A stretch of DNA of 43,540 nucleotides from the IMG/VR virus record IMGVR_UViG_3300045733_000193, positions 1 through 43,540 of that record. One strand, given 5' to 3'. This document shows, piece after piece, positions 3,171-43,540 of the stretch. The DNA is from a virus. Numbering within the stretch: the stretch's first letter is position 1; the number at the start of each line of letters is the position of its first letter. Under the pieces are notes generated by a model, which saw nothing but the letters and a program-made list of their open reading frames with translations, was not told the origin of the DNA and did not search any database. Position numbers and translations under genes: made by a program.

Positions 3171-4658
3171 ATGAGAATACAAACGCGACGCCAACAGATT
3201 CAGGAATTGCAGGCTGCGAATACGAAGCTCGTCAAGGCGCAAGAGCTCATCGTCGAACAGGTCGACAACATCCTCACCGTTCAGGCCGAAGAGAAAAAGA
3301 ATTACACGGGCAACCGTTATAAGACGGCGGGCGTTGCCGTCATCGAGCTGGCTCGCAAGTACACGGGACTCTCCGACTGGGGCGTCCTCCAGGTCGGCAA
3401 CATCATCGACCTCCGCGCCGCCTATATCGTCGGACAGGGCATCAAGGTCAGCAAGGTCCTCCCTAAGGACGCGGACGATTCCGAGAAAGCGGGCGCCGAT
3501 GCGGCCTATGCCTTCGCGGATCGGTTCATCAAGTTCAACAGTTTGGATCATGAGCTCCCTCAGTCTCTGGCGCGTGAAGCCGAGATCGAAGGTAAGACGC
3601 TTCTCAAGATATTCCCGGTCCCATCCAAGGACACCGCGGCAATCGAGGGCACGGACATCGGCTTGCGGTGGATATCCTGGACGTCGCACGGCTACACGGT
3701 CACGACCGACACGAAGGATTATCTGAAAATCGAGAGCATCGAATGGGGCGGAGGCGAGAAGCTGCTCCCCGCCGACTGCGTCTTCAAGCGGTTCGCCGGG
3801 CGCCTGGATATGCTCAACGATTCCATGCCGCGCACCGCGAAGTGCCTGACGCAGATCGAGGATCTGGACATGGCGCTCTGGGACTGGCGGAAGATCAACA
3901 GCCTCTACGCGGGCCCGAAGCTTCATGTCGAATGTGCGACGGCGGCCCAGGCCAAGGAAATGCAGGAGGGCATGGACGGGCTGAATTACAAGATCGGGCT
4001 CGGCATCGCCCATACCGGGGTCATGGGATACCTCCAGCCGTCGGCGGAAGGGCAACGGGCCATCGAGTCGGAGATCCTGACGAAGATGAAGCTCATCAGC
4101 GGGACGACGGGCGTACCCATCAATGCGCTGGGAGCGCCGGAGCTCACCACGAAACTCGGCGCCGACTCTCAGGCCCAGCTCGACCTCATCGCCATGTCGA
4201 CGGTTGAGGAAAGAGAAGTCTGGCGGGGCGGGTATCAGGAAGTCATCGAAAAGGCCATGCGACTGTGGAATGCCGAGACGAAGAAGACGCCGCTCCGGCC
4301 CGAGCTTATCAGGGTCGATATCGTCGTCGTAACGGCGGAGCAATGGAAGCGGATCATTGACACGTGGCTCCCGCTCAAGAATAGCGGGGAGATTACGCGG
4401 AAGACGCTTCTGTCTCAGGTTCCCGGGCTCGATGCGGAAGCGGAGCTCGAGGCGCTCGAGAACGAGGACGCGGCGAGCATGGATAAGTTCGCGGGCCAGG
4501 CGGACGCGGGAGCGGACCCGAACGCCGACCCCAACGCGGACCCTAATGCGCCGGCCGACCCGAACGCGCCCAACCCTCCGGGGAAGATAGGCGGGCTCAA
4601 CGGGCAGACGCTCCGGTACAAGTCTAATCCCGGAAACATTACGAAGAAAGGGAGCTGA
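3171..4658 (+). CDS. Portal protein
   Basis: 495 aa, directly after the large terminase. The N-terminal helical part (NYTGNRYKTAGVAVIELARKYTGLSDWGVLQVGNIIDLRAAYIVGQG is split here: key parts are GVLQVGNIIDLRA and YIVGQGIK) and the stem/crown region with VPINALGAPELTTKLGADS resemble SPP1 gp6/phi29-type portals. Twelve copies form the ring for DNA entry and tail attachment. The C-terminal tail carries four DPNA units in a Pro/Ala/Asp-rich, disordered stretch around 4516-4573. Start chosen at ATG 3171, behind a CTGAGG ribosome site 8 bases after the terminase stop. Confidence 0.9.
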   Translation: MRIQTRRQQIQELQAANTKLVKAQELIVEQVDNILTVQAEEKKNYTGNRYKTAGVAVIELARKYTGLSDWGVLQVGNIIDLRAAYIVGQGIKVSKVLPKDADDSEKAGADAAYAFADRFIKFNSLDHELPQSLAREAEIEGKTLLKIFPVPSKDTAAIEGTDIGLRWISWTSHGYTVTTDTKDYLKIESIEWGGGEKLLPADCVFKRFAGRLDMLNDSMPRTAKCLTQIEDLDMALWDWRKINSLYAGPKLHVECATAAQAKEMQEGMDGLNYKIGLGIAHTGVMGYLQPSAEGQRAIESEILTKMKLISGTTGVPINALGAPELTTKLGADSQAQLDLIAMSTVEEREVWRGGYQEVIEKAMRLWNAETKKTPLRPELIRVDIVVVTAEQWKRIIDTWLPLKNSGEITRKTLLSQVPGLDAEAELEALENEDAASMDKFAGQADAGADPNADPNADPNAPADPNAPNPPGKIGGLNGQTLRYKSNPGNITKKGS

Positions 4659-35121: not shown

Positions 35122-36216
35122 ATGAGTTTACTTCAACCCGCCAAGCCCGAGGCGGCATTTCTCAAAATGGGCATTTACGGAGACGCGAAGTCGGGGAAGA
35201 CGTTCACCTCCGCTTCCGTTCTTATCGGTTTTCACAAGTTCATGAAATCGGATAAGCCGATAGCGTTCATGGACACGGAAACCGGAAGCGACTACGTCCA
35301 GCATCGCTTCAGGGAGTCCGGGATTCCGCTTCTCGTCGCCAAGACGCGGTCTTTCAAAGACCTGTTGGCGATCACGGACGAAGCCGAGAAATCATGCTTC
35401 GCGCTTTTGGTCGATTCCATCACCCATCCTTGGGATGAGCTGATGAACGCCTATCAGAAACAACACAACAAAACAAGGCTATCCCTCGGGGACTGGATTC
35501 CGATCAAGGCCATGTGGCGGGAGTTCACCACAAAGTACATCGGCTCAAGGCTCCATATAATCGTTTGTGGACGAGCCGGGGACAAGTGGGAAGACGTTAC
35601 CGATGAGAACGGAGTCAAGGAACTCCGCAAGACCGGGACACGTATGCGCACGGAAAAAGAACTCGGGTATGAGCCGAGTCTTTTGGTTGAAATGGAATCC
35701 GTCCAAACCGAAGCGAAATTCGGCGGCTCCATCCTCCATCGCGCTTATGTCAAGGGGGATCGATTCGACGTTATCAATGGCCGAATCTTTGAAGATCCAA
35801 CTTTCGAGACGTTCCTTCCGCATATCCAAATGCTGAATTTGGGCGGCGAACACAAGGCCCTGGAACCAGATCGCTCAAGCGTCGGGATGTTCGACGATCC
35901 GAACATGGGCGAGAAGCGGGCGCTCAACAAAGAGATCCTCTGCGAGAAGATCGCCAATGAGATCAAGAAGCTGTTCCCGGCCCAAACCGAAAAAGACAAG
36001 GCCGATCGCGTCAAGCTCATGGAGGAAGTATTCGGGACGAATTCCTGGACCGAGATTTCGACGCTGTTCAAGAATGACCGCTTGGCCATCGGACTGGAAA
36101 TCCTCCAGGGCAAGGTCGCTGCGGCCTTCGCCCCGTCAACCGACGTGCCGGCCGCGTCCACCATGACCGTTGTCCCCGAAGCCGTCAAGGTCGGGAAGAA
36201 GGAGAAGAAATCATGA
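35122..36216 (+). CDS. Sak4-like RecA-fold ATPase
   Basis: 364 aa. The ribosome site AAGGAGG ends at 35110, so ATG 35122 (11-base spacing) fits better than ATG 35113 (2 bases). Walker A is GDAKSGKT near residue 20. A Walker B-like strand is CFALLVDSITH. The order P-loop, MDTETGSDY, DSITHPWDELM matches the AAA_24/Sak4 group of phage single-strand annealing or RecA-like recombinases. Longer than typical Sak4, with an extra C-terminal helical part. It overlaps the SSB-like gene (ATGA), the usual partner. Confidence 0.82.
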   Translation: MSLLQPAKPEAAFLKMGIYGDAKSGKTFTSASVLIGFHKFMKSDKPIAFMDTETGSDYVQHRFRESGIPLLVAKTRSFKDLLAITDEAEKSCFALLVDSITHPWDELMNAYQKQHNKTRLSLGDWIPIKAMWREFTTKYIGSRLHIIVCGRAGDKWEDVTDENGVKELRKTGTRMRTEKELGYEPSLLVEMESVQTEAKFGGSILHRAYVKGDRFDVINGRIFEDPTFETFLPHIQMLNLGGEHKALEPDRSSVGMFDDPNMGEKRALNKEILCEKIANEIKKLFPAQTEKDKADRVKLMEEVFGTNSWTEISTLFKNDRLAIGLEILQGKVAAAFAPSTDVPAASTMTVVPEAVKVGKKEKKS

Positions 36217-36614
36217 AATGGCCCGAACCGGAAAACAAACTCATCCCCGAAGGTCACTACACCTTTCGGCTCAACAAAGAGCCGGAGTTTCGCAAGTTCA
36301 CCTACAACGGGAAGGACGGACAGAAAGAAGGGATCAAGGTCATTCTCTACCTGTCCGGGCTGAACGAAAAAGGAGAGTTCCGGCACATCGAGGGGATCCC
36401 CGTTTGGGATACCCGCTATGCGAAGCTCTGCGAAGTCCTCGGGGTCGAACACGGGAAGGATATCGAGATGGCCGAGTCGGTTATCGACGGCGACATCAAG
36501 CACGAGGCCGACAAGAACGATCCGACCAAAACCTACGCCCGACTCTACGGGATCGTGCCGCATATCGACGTGGCCGAAGTCCCCGATCCGTCCGATGGGG
36601 ATGTTCCCTTTTAG
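36213..36614 (+). CDS. SSB-like protein (DUF669-type)
   Basis: 133 aa. It has the LIPEGHYTFRLNKEPEF start and a beta-rich middle, as in DUF669 proteins. It ends in DPSDGDVPF, an acidic tail with the terminal Pro-Phe that in SSB proteins recruits replication and repair factors. It likely coats single-stranded DNA for the upstream ATPase. Last gene of the first early operon. Confidence 0.78.
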   Translation: MKWPEPENKLIPEGHYTFRLNKEPEFRKFTYNGKDGQKEGIKVILYLSGLNEKGEFRHIEGIPVWDTRYAKLCEVLGVEHGKDIEMAESVIDGDIKHEADKNDPTKTYARLYGIVPHIDVAEVPDPSDGDVPF

Positions 36615-36623
36615 GATTTACCC

Positions 36624-36755
36624 ATGCCCACCACGCCGCGCCGCCCCCTGCTGACTCCCACCAATGGCTCGGCGTTCACGGCCGGGGCTGTCGTCATGGC
36701 GGCTCCGGCCATTTCTTTTCAAAAGGGTATTGACACGGGCCGGGATTCGGAGTAG
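36624..36755 (+). CDS. Possible 43-aa small protein
   Basis: ATG 36624 to TAG 36753-36755 with a weak AGGA upstream. Residues are Pro/Thr/Ala-rich with a short hydrophobic middle (AFTAGAVVMAAPAISF). The stop codon is part of the -10 box of the next promoter. Could be a real peptide or only an open stretch; no similarity recognised. Confidence 0.35.
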   Translation: MPTTPRRPLLTPTNGSAFTAGAVVMAAPAISFQKGIDTGRDSE

Positions 36756-36758
36756 ATT
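36730..36758 (+). promoter_or_regulatory. Promoter of RNA element 1
   Basis: -35 TTGACA (36730-36735), 17-base spacer, -10 TAGATT (36753-36758). Perfect -35 and ideal spacing. The expected start point, about 6-7 bases downstream, is the first base of the structured RNA. Confidence 0.78.
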
Positions 36759-36764
36759 ATGGGC

Positions 36765-36877
36765 GTGACGAGTAGGAAACGGCTCAATGCAAAACGTCAA
36801 ACATAACCCCTGTCGTCGTCTGCCTAACGGCTGTTCCCTGCTCGTCACTCGGACAAAGACGGCGACGGGGGTTTTTT
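36765..36877 (+). ncRNA. Structured RNA element 1 with interlocked stems and terminator
   Basis: Arm A (36765-36784) pairs with A' (36829-36848) in a 20-bp stem with one A-C mismatch and a few G-U pairs; the outer 8 bp (GTGACGAG/CTCGTCAC) are perfect. Arm B (36807-36820) pairs with B' (36858-36871) in a 14-bp stem with two G-U pairs, followed by TTTTTTATTTT, so B/B' is an intrinsic terminator. The order A-B-A'-B' means the stems either form a pseudoknot or exclude each other. It may be a small RNA or an attenuator for the gene at 36897, whose AAGGAGG follows at once. Confidence 0.78.
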
Positions 36878-36896
36878 ATTTTACAAGGAGGATGAA

Positions 36897-37622
36897 ATGA
36901 ACGAGGACAAGGTGAACGTTTTTCAATCGCTCATAAAGTGCCAGCCTCACTTTTTGGAGCGTCCTCTGGCAGACCTTCTGCCGATGCGGTTCATGGGGGA
37001 GGTTGCCGTCAACGCCTATCGGGGATTGATGAAGCACCTGGACAGCCTCCCGCTTTCGCTGGAAGAAAAGGAATCGCGGCTCCGTGATGGCCAGGACGCG
37101 GGGCGGGCGCTTCTGATGATCGAGGCCAAGATCGGGGAGTTGGCGGCGAAAACTCCGCAGGTACAAGCCCCGATCGTGAAAGGTCGGAGGCCGCCTTCGG
37201 GCGAGCGACCTAAGCATGAACGTCTCGGCATGACCCACACTCAATTGAAGCGGGCCGAGGAAATCCATTCCCACCCCGCCGAGGTCGCCGAGGTCATCCG
37301 CGAGGCCGAGGAAAACGAGGACATTCCGACCAAGACAGCCGTCCTCAACAAGATCGCCTACAAGCGGGAATTGGAGCGGGTAAAGGGGACACGGGAAAAG
37401 ACCAACATGGAAATGGCCGCCGACGCCTATCTCTACTATTCAAAACTCGAAGATGCTCTCCGGCTCATTCCCGCAACCCCGCCGCATGAATTCAAGGAAA
37501 GGGATTTTCTTCAAATCAAAGCCGTCGCGCTTTTGATAATTAAACGATTGGAGGTTTTCAATGGGACGAAATCTGAAGGTTCAACCGGGTCAAGTAAAAG
37601 ACTTTCTCAAGGAAAACGGTAA
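36897..37622 (+). CDS. Hypothetical early/replication protein
   Basis: 241 aa behind a strong AAGGAGG, directly after RNA element 1. N-terminal helical region, a Lys/Arg/Pro-rich linker near 95-110, then a charged helical segment (QLKRAEEIHSHPAEVAEVIREAEENE) that faintly recalls ParB-like linkers. The C-terminus is Ser/Lys/Gly-rich. It overlaps the next gene by 62 bases. Function unknown; DNA binding is possible. Confidence 0.75.
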   Translation: MNEDKVNVFQSLIKCQPHFLERPLADLLPMRFMGEVAVNAYRGLMKHLDSLPLSLEEKESRLRDGQDAGRALLMIEAKIGELAAKTPQVQAPIVKGRRPPSGERPKHERLGMTHTQLKRAEEIHSHPAEVAEVIREAEENEDIPTKTAVLNKIAYKRELERVKGTREKTNMEMAADAYLYYSKLEDALRLIPATPPHEFKERDFLQIKAVALLIIKRLEVFNGTKSEGSTGSSKRLSQGKR

Positions 37623-37977
37623 CGCCGTTACGGTCGCAAACATCGCCGACGAATTTGGTGTTTGCAAAAAGACGATCGGGAAAAGACTCAATACTCTTCG
37701 CGGAGAAGGTGAGCCCATGCTCCCGACAAGGGAGGGCATACTTTATGCCGACAAGGTAACGGACGAGGCTCGGGCCAAATTGGTCAAGGACGCCGTGGAG
37801 TGGGTTGTATCCTCTCTCCGGACGCTTGTAGGAATTGCCGCCGTCGAAAAGAGACCGCTCCTACAGGCAAGGAAAATCTTGGAATCGGCCGAAGATCGGA
37901 GACAAATCAAGGCTCAACTGATGATGTTGGCCCATGCCATTGACATCATTGACATCGACCGCCAGCTGGAAGAATAG
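37561..37977 (+). CDS. Winged-helix DNA-binding protein
   Basis: 138 aa. The ribosome site TTGGAGG 6 bases before ATG 37561 supports this start in spite of the 62-base overlap with the previous gene. Residues about 8-60 (VKDFLKENGNAVTVANIADEF, VCKKTIGKRLNTLRGEG) are a winged helix-turn-helix, with the wing at TREGILYADK. A C-terminal helical region may dimerise. Likely a transcription regulator, perhaps of the promoter just downstream. Confidence 0.8.
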   Translation: MGRNLKVQPGQVKDFLKENGNAVTVANIADEFGVCKKTIGKRLNTLRGEGEPMLPTREGILYADKVTDEARAKLVKDAVEWVVSSLRTLVGIAAVEKRPLLQARKILESAEDRRQIKAQLMMLAHAIDIIDIDRQLEE

Positions 37978-37992
37978 GGGATTTTTTATCGC

Positions 37993-38020
37993 TTTACAAT
38001 ATGACAGAAAAGCGTATTAT
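37993..38020 (+). promoter_or_regulatory. Promoter of RNA element 2
   Basis: -35 TTTACA (37993-37998), 16-base spacer, -10 TATTAT (38015-38020), with a second -10 candidate TATATT at 38018-38023. The expected start falls at the first base of RNA element 2, the same geometry as element 1. Confidence 0.65.
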
Positions 38021-38027
38021 ATTCTAT

Positions 38028-38140
38028 GTGCATACCGAAAATGAAACTGCATAATCAAGAACCCGACGCCAGAGGACTGTCCTTTTTCCTCATCCCGAGG
38101 ATAGGTATGCACCAGGAAGCTCAGCGTCGGGTTTTTATTT
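38028..38140 (+). ncRNA. Structured RNA element 2 with interlocked stems and terminator
   Basis: Arm A, GTGCATACC (38028-38036), pairs perfectly with A' (38104-38112). Arm B, AACCCGACGC (38060-38069), pairs perfectly with B' (38124-38133), which runs into TTTTTATTTT. The A-B spacer is 23 bases (22 in element 1), the A'-B' spacer 11 (9 in element 1). The B-A' spacer is longer (34 versus 8) and holds GGAC/GTCC and CCTC/GAGG mini-stems. Sequence is unlike element 1, but the plan and total length match. It lies just before the replication initiator gene. Confidence 0.78.
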
Positions 38141-38152
38141 TGCGGGTTTCAA

Positions 38153-38494
38153 TTGAAAAAGGGTAAACGCGATGTTAGCCACGCCCCCTTCGTTAGAATG
38201 GGGCGGGACGTCATTCTTAACGGAAAAGAATGGCATGGGCTTCATCCCGGATCGCGAGACATTTACCTTCTCCTTAAGTCAAAATTCAACGGCGTCAATA
38301 ATGGGCAAATTTTGCTCCATTATTCTGAGATTATGGCGAAGGGGGTTAAGGGTCTCCAAAGCCATTCGGTCATCTCTCGGGCGTTTTCAGAATTGGAGGT
38401 ATCGGGATGGATCGAAAGAACGAAAATCGGGGGTCTGTTCCGATTCAAGAACTCCTACCGACTCACCGGAAGATTCGATTCCCTGCTTGGGTGA
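38153..38494 (+). CDS. Replication initiator, N-terminal winged-helix part
   Basis: 113 aa from TTG 38153; ATG 38198 is a shorter option. Contains the phage replication winged helix: LLKSKFNGVNNGQILLHYSEI, then SHSVISRAFSELEVSGWIER. In many phages this domain is joined to a C-terminal FWxxYP domain in one lambda O-like protein. Here the frame stops at 38492-38494, and the C-terminal half continues in the +1 frame. The domain is expected to bind the iterons downstream. Confidence 0.78.
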   Translation: MKKGKRDVSHAPFVRMGRDVILNGKEWHGLHPGSRDIYLLLKSKFNGVNNGQILLHYSEIMAKGVKGLQSHSVISRAFSELEVSGWIERTKIGGLFRFKNSYRLTGRFDSLLG

Positions 38495-38498
38495 TTCG

Positions 38499-38945
38499 AT
38501 GATGGGGTCTGGTAGATATATAAATACAGTTCCGAAAAGGAACCGTCGGGATGACGTTGACGGTATCAAAAAGGAACCGTCGGTGGAAAGTCTTGCCTTA
38601 CCGGGCTTTGAAGAACTGATAGAAGAAATGGCGACGGTTTCAAAAAAGAACCGTGACGGTATCAAAAAGGAACCTATGTTCCAAGGCTCCGACGATGCTT
38701 TCCGGGAATTTTGGGATGCGTATCCCGAGAAGCGGAACAAGCCCGACGCTCTCAAGGCATTCAATGTTTTGCGGAGGACGGTTCCGGTGGAAACGATCGC
38801 CAAGGCGTTCAATGGATATATGGATTTTCTCAAACATCAGCGGGTCGACAAGGGATTCGAGCAGGCACCAATGTATCCGGCAACGTTCCTTCGGTCCGAG
38901 CGGTGGAAGGAATATCTAGATTTCAAGTATAAGGCGAAATTGTAA
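38499..38945 (+). CDS. Replication initiator, C-terminal part (FWxxYP domain)
   Basis: 148 aa from ATG 38499, 4 bases after the previous stop and in the +1 frame. The first 65 residues are a linker that contains three (I/V)(K/S)K(E/N)-type repeats, coded by the iterons. Then comes FREFWDAYPEKRNKPDALKAF, followed by YPATFLRSERWKEYLDF, the typical C-terminal domain of phage replication proteins that recruits the helicase loader. No ribosome site of its own, so it needs coupling or a +1 shift at CTT GGG TGA. Confidence 0.75.
   Translation: MMGSGRYINTVPKRNRRDDVDGIKKEPSVESLALPGFEELIEEMATVSKKNRDGIKKEPMFQGSDDAFREFWDAYPEKRNKPDALKAFNVLRRTVPVETIAKAFNGYMDFLKHQRVDKGFEQAPMYPATFLRSERWKEYLDFKYKAKL
38528..38675. 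repeat. Four iterons: candidate replication origin
   Basis: Four related repeats start at about 38528, 38558, 38632 and 38654. The shared core is CGGT-(A/T)-TCAAAAAGGAACCG; each full copy is a dyad with arms GACGGT and ACCGTC around an A-rich centre. An AT-rich stretch (AGATATATAAATAC, near 38512-38525) sits just upstream. The arrangement, iterons inside the initiator's linker, is that of lambda ori inside gene O. Confidence 0.75.
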
Positions 38946-38956
38946 GGGGGAATGAC

Positions 38957-39466
38957 ATGAACGCGAAGAACACCATGATCGTATGCGCCGCCATCCTCGG
39001 GGCGCTTCTCACGGGCCTCGTCCTGGGCCTGTGGTTCGGCGAAAACATCGGCGAAGGTGTGGCCCGCATGGAGCTCGCGCCGCTCATCGAGCGGAACGCG
39101 CTGGACGTCGCCGCGCTTGACGCGAACCTCGCCGCCATGACCGACCGCCTGATCGCGCTCAGCGAGAGTATGGCCTATGTCGGGCTCGCATCCTGGTATG
39201 GAACGGGCGGTGAACATGGGCGCATCGGGGCAAATGGCAAGCGGTTTGACATGAACGAAATGACCGCCGCCGCGAAAAGGCTACCGTTTGGATCTCGGTG
39301 GATCGTTCGCCGAATGGACACGGGAGCGAGCGTTATCGTCACCGTGACGGACGATGGGCCGAATGTGTCTGGTCGGATGATCGACCTGAGCTTCGCCGCC
39401 GCGAAGTCAATCGGGATGCTGGACGCCGGGCTCGTCAAGGTCCGCATTTCGCCGATAGGAGAATGA
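38957..39466 (+). CDS. RlpA-like double-psi barrel protein, catalytic residues altered
   Basis: 169 aa. Residues 7-27 are a membrane anchor, 35-72 a helical stalk, and 76-165 an RlpA-type double-psi beta-barrel: GLASWYG, GANGKRFDMNEMTAAAKRLP, TDDGPNVSGRMIDLS, GLVKVRIS. In lytic RlpA enzymes the NGE Glu and the AAH His lie 11 residues apart. Here they are K95 and A106, while the DxGP Asp (D132) is kept. The protein is thus probably a wall-binding or structural protein, not a transglycosylase. Confidence 0.82.
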   Translation: MNAKNTMIVCAAILGALLTGLVLGLWFGENIGEGVARMELAPLIERNALDVAALDANLAAMTDRLIALSESMAYVGLASWYGTGGEHGRIGANGKRFDMNEMTAAAKRLPFGSRWIVRRMDTGASVIVTVTDDGPNVSGRMIDLSFAAAKSIGMLDAGLVKVRISPIGE

Positions 39467-43001: not shown

Positions 43002-43415
43002 ATGATTTCCTCCATTCGCGGGCGGGAGTCTAGATTTTTGCTAACTCCCGCCCCTCTTTCCCTTTCCATAACGGAGAAGCAAATCCGCTTCGAGCGTGCG
43101 TCAGCGCGGTTCGTCCTCGCCTGCCAGATCAACGATATCAGCGTCGTCTGCTACCGCTACATCGCAACCCTCGATGAAGAGCTCGCGCATTTCCTTGCCG
43201 GGCGTAGCGAGATCGACCCGCGGCTCCATCGGACGATGCACCAGGACCGGCTCGCCAAGGATTACTTCATCGTCCGGGCGGACGGGACCGTGGCCTGGGA
43301 AGGCATGGACTATCAGAAGTTTGGAGAATTAGCGGAAGGCGTCGGGCTTCGTTGGGGCGGCAGGTTCACGCGATTATTGGATTACGGCCACGTCGAGTAT
43401 CAGGCGAGCACATGA
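43002..43415 (+). CDS. Endolysin, M15 peptidase family (start unclear)
   Basis: With ATG 43002 the protein is 137 aa. The M15 zinc peptidase motifs are clear: MHQDRLAKDYF (ligands H80, D87) and LRWGGRFTRLLDYGHVE (D127, H130), the same spacing as D130/H133 of T5 endolysin. It likely cleaves L-Ala-D-Glu or D-Ala-D-Ala bonds in peptidoglycan. Homologues usually start near (M)TEKQ-RF, which here falls at ATA 43068. Neither ATG 43002, TTG 43038 nor ATA 43068 has a ribosome site, so the true start is open. Stop overlaps the next ATG (43412). Confidence 0.78.
   Translation: MISSIRGRESRFLLTPAPLSLSITEKQIRFERASARFVLACQINDISVVCYRYIATLDEELAHFLAGRSEIDPRLHRTMHQDRLAKDYFIVRADGTVAWEGMDYQKFGELAEGVGLRWGGRFTRLLDYGHVEYQAST
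43019..43054 (+). terminator. Strong hairpin at the 5' end of the endolysin frame
   Basis: A 10-bp stem, GGGCGGGAGT (43020-43029) with ACTCCCGCCC (43044-43053), with a 14-base loop holding TTTTTG. It is followed by CTCTTTCCCTTTCC, a pyrimidine tract but not a pure T-run. It sits between the promoter at 42945 and the conserved part of the endolysin. It may attenuate transcription or limit translation. Confidence 0.65.
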
Positions 43416-43540
43416 CCAAAACGACCCAAGTCCTCATCGCCATCATCGCAATCCTCGCGCTATTCGCGGGCGGACTCATGATCTACTCGGGCCATGAGAA
43501 GAAACTGTATTTGATCGACAAAGGCAAGGCCCAAGTCCTC
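43412..43540 (+). CDS. Start of the two-TM membrane protein (continues at position 2)
   Basis: ATG 43412 in ATGA at the endolysin stop, giving MTKTTQVLIAIIAIL and so on. The frame runs off the window and continues on the same bases at 1-712. This supplies the missing start and 22 N-terminal residues, including the first membrane segment. Confidence 0.9.
   Translation, partial: MTKTTQVLIAIIAILALFAGGLMIYSGHEKKLYLIDKGKAQVL
43414..43540. repeat. Terminal direct repeat, right copy
   Basis: Exact copy of bases 1-127. See the left copy. Unique genome length is 43,413 bp if the overlap is collapsed. Confidence 0.93.

Follow-up and report, generated by a model that had tools for sequence, protein, structure and literature searches.

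In the pT181 and pIP501 attenuators, a pre-emptor sequence pairs with the 5′ arm of the terminator, and an antisense RNA sets the balance between the two folds (PMC5703833). In the RCd22-abiF leader of a C. difficile prophage, a promoter is followed by an ∼100-nt structured RNA, a terminator and a gene that is expressed by read-through (PMC12373285). Type III toxin–antitoxin operons have the same order, and their antitoxin RNAs are H-type pseudoknots (PMC5086642). The putRNA of phage HK022 comprises two stem-loops that are separate but share sequence and that suppress terminators at a distance (PMC9378689), and ZMP/pfl-type riboswitches combine a pseudoknot with terminator competition (PMC7337938).

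We analysed a phage record (IMG/VR record IMGVR_UViG_3300045733_000193; its whole stretch of 43,540 nucleotides is hereafter the window) that carries two intergenic stretches of the same plan in its replication module. Both contain a sigma70-like promoter, an arm A at the predicted start, two stems whose arms interlock in the order A-B-A′-B′, and a T tract into which arm B′ runs. The window also carries an exact 127-nt direct terminal repeat (1–127 and 43414–43540); the record is probably a complete genome, either circularly assembled or terminally redundant.

As in pT181 and pIP501, a leader terminator lies directly before a replication initiator gene and an early alternative fold would decide read-through. 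An intrinsic terminator in an initiator-gene leader is present for element 2 and for the element of another phage (G009), while element 1 precedes a different gene. The pre-emptor pairing with the 5′ arm of the terminator that is typical of pT181/pIP501 was not found (A pairs with A′), and a minus-strand consensus scan gave no suitably placed antisense promoter within elements 1 and 2. With RCd22-abiF and the type III operons, the elements share the order of promoter, structured RNA, terminator and gene, but not the content: (i) one of their two interlocked helices is the terminator stem itself; (ii) they have no repeats (none in tandem was found inside them) and no abiF motif (RF03085); and (iii) no toxin-like gene follows, as judged by the lack of any Pfam or PADLOC match to ToxN/CptN/TenpN or Abi_2 behind them. 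Like HK022 putRNA, which acts on transcription in cis, they would be phage leader RNAs near +1, but the pairing observed in them is interlocked rather than side by side, includes the terminator and is formed by helices without common sequence. The pseudoknot topology beside an intrinsic leader terminator recalls ZMP/pfl riboswitches; by contrast, the elements have no conserved ligand-binding core and no Rfam match and are mutually dissimilar. Compared with Rfam, the window gave 0 matches at the gathering score, and the L012 and L024 elements gave none with E values up to 1, consistent with an initial annotation of this DNA that knew of no named family with this plan. No description of the layout was found in the open-access literature, subscription journals being outside that search. 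Leader attenuation is a known kind of control; the 5′-anchored interlock with the terminator is the variant. The layout looks like a real, undescribed gene switch, with its action predicted from sequence.

Layout of the two elements and their downstream genes

The features of the window are as follows.

36680–36710, + strand: conventional hairpin terminator (terminator scan, 14-pair stem)
36730–36758, + strand: predicted promoter of element 1, TTGACA-17-TAGATT (consensus scan, 10/12)
36765–36784, + strand: arm A of element 1, at the predicted 5′ end (pairing scan)
36805–36821, + strand: arm B of element 1, 5′ arm of the terminator (pairing scan)
36829–36848, + strand: arm A′ of element 1 (pairing scan)
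36857–36882, + strand: arm B′ of element 1 (36857–36873) and T tract (pairing scan, sequence)
36897–37622, + strand: P0001 gene, 3′ of element 1, coding for a 241-aa helical protein
37561–37977, + strand: P0002, HTH protein, second gene of the pair (PF08279, E=5e-4, below the curated cut-off)
37993–38020, + strand: predicted promoter of element 2, TTTACA-16-TATTAT (consensus scan, 10/12)
38028–38036, + strand: arm A of element 2 (pairing scan)
38060–38069, + strand: arm B of element 2 (38057–38069 with extra A-T pairs; pairing scan)
38104–38112, + strand: arm A′ of element 2 (pairing scan)
38124–38141, + strand: arm B′ of element 2 (38124–38133) running into the T tract (pairing scan, sequence)
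38153–38494, + strand: ORF after element 2 (translation; start codon uncertain, TTG shown)
38499–38945, + strand: C-terminal half of the replication initiator (phrog_270 replication initiation protein, E=4e-13)
38524–38674, + strand: four 21-nt iteron-like repeats inside the initiator gene (repeat scan)

The hairpin terminator at 36680–36710 forms the end of the upstream operon just 5′ of the element 1 promoter. Because that operon has a terminator-like hairpin of its own, element 1 looks like a separate transcription unit. Its −35 box (TTGACA, 36730–36735) and −10 box (TAGATT, 36753–36758) are separated by a 17-nt spacer, and the −10 box ends 6 nt 5′ of arm A. In element 2, the −35 box (TTTACA, 37993–37998) and −10 box (TATTAT, 38015–38020) are 16 nt apart. 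The predicted promoters place arm A at +1 in both elements, as claimed in the initial annotation.

In element 1, A/A′ has 19 of 20 positions paired (3 G-U, 1 mismatch) and B/B′ all 17 (2 G-U); TTTTATTTT follows directly 3′ of arm B′, and the T tract is followed by a Shine-Dalgarno sequence and the P0001 gene. Both stems of element 2 are perfectly paired, with TTTATTTT directly 3′ of arm B′. The A–B spacer is 20 nt in element 1 and 21–23 nt in element 2, and the A′–B′ spacers are 8 and 11 nt. Sequence and pairing scan thus confirm the two interlocked elements with promoter and T tract that were first reported with spacers of 22/23 and 9/11, values that differ from ours only by where the arms are cut. 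The elements have no common sequence beyond the terminator tail. No short-loop hairpin adjoining either T tract was reported by the terminator scan, so that termination would need arm B.

Within the arms, nearly every imperfect position is a G-U pair. This fits an RNA better than a DNA operator, although the scoring itself rewards G-U, and it disfavours operator-type DNA palindromes as an alternative. A leader peptide was also considered, as a leaderless GTG at the predicted +1 opens frames of 13 and 8 codons in elements 1 and 2; such a mechanism is disfavoured by the G009 copy, which has no start codon at that position.

The P0001 gene heads a conserved pair with the HTH gene P0002. Its family is small and helical, carries a nearly invariant ENEDIP.KTAV motif and includes relatives in seven other phage records, making eight records in this dataset. 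The predicted P0001 structure (helical, pLDDT 77) has no PDB relative at E <0.1, and two genome-contig scans and a motif scan gave no further useful relatives. The ORF at 38153–38494 has no family or profile match; judged from sequence pattern and position, it is likely the winged-helix N-terminal half of the replication initiator. The iteron-like repeats probably mark an origin inside the initiator gene, an arrangement also seen in lambda. A 12-nt perfect palindrome, TTTCAATTGAAA (38147–38158), lies between the T tract of element 2 and the initiator and is a possible operator. The initial annotation placed each element just before a replication or regulation gene. This holds for element 2, but P0001 behind element 1 has no known function, although it is paired with an HTH gene.

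Comparison with shuffled sequences

We scanned for A-B-A′-B′ interlocked stems that end in a T tract and took 40 dinucleotide shuffles of the whole genome as the null. Elements 1 and 2 score 85 and 53, respectively, while the best score per strand in shuffled genomes is 44–60, with 0.45 matches of at least 53 per strand. By score, element 1 is therefore far beyond chance, and element 2, taken alone, scores no better genome-wide than chance would give. When only the intergenic stretch that holds it is shuffled, element 2 outscores 60 of 60 shuffles, as does each of the four elements found by the scan here and in other phages in its own stretch (see below).

Adding a joint criterion (a promoter scoring 9/12 or more, with arm A beginning at its +1) leaves 0.17 matches per Mb in shuffles; four were found, in three phages. 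Element 2 is thus non-random despite its chance-level score once promoter and position are taken into account. With B/B′ held fixed, an A/A′ pairing as good at the start-site position arose in 0 of 3000 shuffles for element 1 and 6 of 3000 for element 2; the corresponding counts in three other phages are 1 (G003), 0 (G009) and 16 (G006) of 3000. Promoter-like sites alone are not enriched (7 found vs 5.3 expected).

Two other lines were discarded. Interlocked pairs picked by eye 5′ of initiator-like genes of Leptospira phage LE1 and Bacteroides phage C3_41T2LP fall within the shuffle range, and a duplex-based scan that tolerated large internal loops proved too permissive and was set aside.

Recurrence in other phages

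Phages with P0001 relatives were fetched without reference to RNA and then scanned. The same plan is present in three other phages, two recognized by the scan (G003 and G009) and a weaker one (G006) by inspection, so that the whole set is small, with five elements in four phages.

G003:38732–38826: element 5′ of a small ORF and an MT-A70 methyltransferase gene
G009:11058 (= L012:8293–8454): element 5′ of a winged-helix replication gene (HTH_36)
G006: B 2280–2296, B′ 2340–2356, A near 2241: weaker element, from the long-loop terminator scan

Record G008 carries the same match as G009. The G006 element has a poor −10 box and precedes a 65-aa ORF and then the P0001–P0002 homologues. All five elements end directly 5′ of a same-strand gene of the replication module, and these downstream genes differ. 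For four of the five, a flank scan found no strong promoter between the T tract and the downstream gene.

The B arms are 10–27 bp and enclose loops of 35–54 nt; such stem loops are far longer than those of ordinary terminators. The A′–B′ gap is 0–1 nt in G003, G009 and G006, vs 8 and 11 nt in the window. Since A′ abuts B′ in these three phages, the A/A′ and B/B′ helices could stack coaxially, which would put the 5′ end of the transcript at their junction.

The initial annotation saw selected structure in the fact that pairing is kept while sequence differs almost completely. The sequences do differ, but since no alignment of the elements is possible, this does not amount to covariation; that the plan recurs in phages fetched independently is the stronger argument.

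The plan is not universal. In G001 and G007, which bear P0001, no such element lies ahead of the P0001 homologue. None was found in 1.37 Mb, both strands counted, from 52 relatives of a neighbouring gene (mostly isolate prophages) and three annotated phages, and there is no interlocked element in the lambda right end or in phage c2. Annotated phages also gave no nucleotide homologues of window positions 35800–39200 or of the G003 and G009 elements.

Other leaders of this replication gene are structured in different ways. The replication genes of G004 and G005 share 69% and 48% identity with that of the window over the C-terminal part, and their leaders are strongly structured (z-scores of −5.2 and −4.0 on folding). 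These leaders are a tandem pair of terminator-like hairpins, each a three-way junction with a T tract (L006:3387–3447 and about 3468–3535), and a single three-way junction that lacks one (L007:3450–3551). Structured RNA leaders thus recur ahead of this initiator, the interlocked form being one of their versions.

Further RNA-like or repeat features were noted in the collected records: (i) a Hammerhead type II ribozyme (RF02276, 47.5 bits vs a gathering score of 37) at L012:1276–1343, on the same record as the G009 element; (ii) a hairpin, GTGGTGGCGA/TCGCCACCAT, in the gap before an HTH gene of Bacteroides phage C3_41T2LP (L037:19640–20010), where a sequence complementary to the start-codon region is also present, suggestive of leader control and not significant; and (iii) TTAGCCGA/TTGGCTAA inverted-repeat arrays at L043:2591–2695, L059:7580–7708 and L084:6591–6695, in prophages with the P0004 gene family.

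Folding order and proposed mechanism

Growing transcripts were folded by energy, giving predictions in which pseudoknots are ignored save for a crude estimate (both stems + 9.6). Once A′ is out, A/A′ is the best fold in element 1 (−35.7 kcal/mol), element 2 (−24.6), G003 (−25.4) and G009 (−37.9). Counting lengths to the end of B′, nested B/B′ overtakes only at 107 of 109 nt in element 1, 103 of 106 in element 2, 92 of 95 in G003 and 152 of 162 in G009, and then by 2–7 kcal/mol. The G006 values of this calculation were offset by one base and are left out. A/A′ therefore dominates until about the last 3–10 nt of B′ emerge. By the crude estimate, the pseudoknot is clearly the most stable fold in element 1 (−61.8 kcal/mol, much more stable than either single fold) and in G003, and roughly level in element 2 and G009.

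This order fits the competition between A/A′ and terminator B/B′ that was first suggested, but A pairs with A′ and not with B. The helices are not mutually exclusive, a pseudoknot is equally drawable, and A/A′ need not prevent termination because it does not pair with the terminator arm; it may hinder termination, have no effect on it or be required for it.

We propose that the elements are operon 5′ leaders that act in cis as transcription attenuators, a reading to which we assign a probability of about 0.5. Transcription would start at arm A. When A′ emerges, the 5′ end would fold back as A/A′ and hold B in the loop, so that with RNA polymerase at the T tract, B′ must find B inside the closed A/A′ loop. 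Should B/B′ form quickly enough, by itself or as a pseudoknot added to A/A′, transcription would stop and leave a stable RNA of ∼110 nt; if A/A′ and inner pairs delay B/B′, polymerase would read through into the downstream genes. The leader would thus terminate most transcripts and let some through. Read-through of element 1 would reach the P0001–P0002 pair, and that of element 2 would express the replication initiator and transcribe the probable iteron origin. Transcription that starts at the upstream gene may also run into element 2. The analysis shows the pairing and its non-randomness, the placement of promoter and T tract, the recurrence and the computed folding order; actual transcription, real termination, the winning helix and any signal that would shift the balance are inferred. 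We found no trigger or ligand, no antisense promoter and, among the ORFs scanned, no antiterminator gene, and pairing of the elements with the downstream ribosome site is not above that in shuffles.

Alternative explanations

The initial annotation left open whether the elements are small RNAs or attenuators. They could be stable small RNA genes that act in trans, with near-complete termination, both ends protected and downstream genes served by other promoters. Each element has its own promoter and terminator, its 5′ end and 3′ arm are both paired, and the estimated pseudoknot of element 1 lies far above single-fold stability, all of which would suit such genes. However, no antisense target above chance was found in the phage's own genome, the window elements have no shared sequence, and the elements always lie close before a downstream gene, a different one each time. 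The different genes and lack of shared sequence disfavour one trans-acting RNA; together with the order of promoter, element and same-strand gene and the absence of an antisense target, they favour a role in cis. Position thus favours the attenuator, and we regard small RNA genes as unlikely.

A less probable reading, for which we see little room, is that these are terminators close to their promoters that depend on an antitermination factor from phage or host, like those at lambda late promoters, with A/A′ being secondary. A promoter followed ∼100 nt on by a terminator, twice in one genome and before replication-module genes, would be expected from such a system. No N-, Q- or put-like component was found among the subset of ORFs scanned, however, and the reading does not account for an A/A′ stem that begins at +1 and is interlocked each time.

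Chance stems beside ordinary promoters and terminators are more improbable still: shuffles reach the score of element 2 alone and the by-eye pseudoknots in two other phages are not significant, but the joint criteria predict ∼0.17 matches per Mb against the four found, and the further 1.37 Mb of other phage DNA has none. Least probable of all is that the RNA of element 2, or transcription from its promoter, activates or primes the iteron origin 400 nt downstream, since, although the iterons (38524–38674) lie inside the gene behind element 2 and the lambda origin is also inside its initiator gene, element 1 and the G003 and G006 copies do not adjoin an initiator gene and the terminator sits before the origin.

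Biological implications

Attenuators are usually drawn as nested, mutually exclusive hairpins. It is conceivable, although on present evidence doubtful, that the cis-acting leaders proposed here belong to a widespread, undescribed class of phage leader switches in which the 5′ end of the transcript is woven into an intrinsic terminator as a pseudoknot, the class being defined by topology without conserved sequence and events at the 5′ end, such as choice of start site, 5′ processing or the binding of a protein or ribosome, deciding the transcription of replication genes. If the class is real, its lack of conserved sequence would explain why sequence-based RNA searches have missed it; a leader defined by topology and free of conserved sequence would escape covariance searches such as those of Rfam. 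It would also raise a biophysical question, namely how a long terminator stem can form while a closed loop confines its 5′ arm. For the phages themselves, the finding hints that uncultured phages, little of whose regulation is known, control the initiation of replication at the level of RNA.
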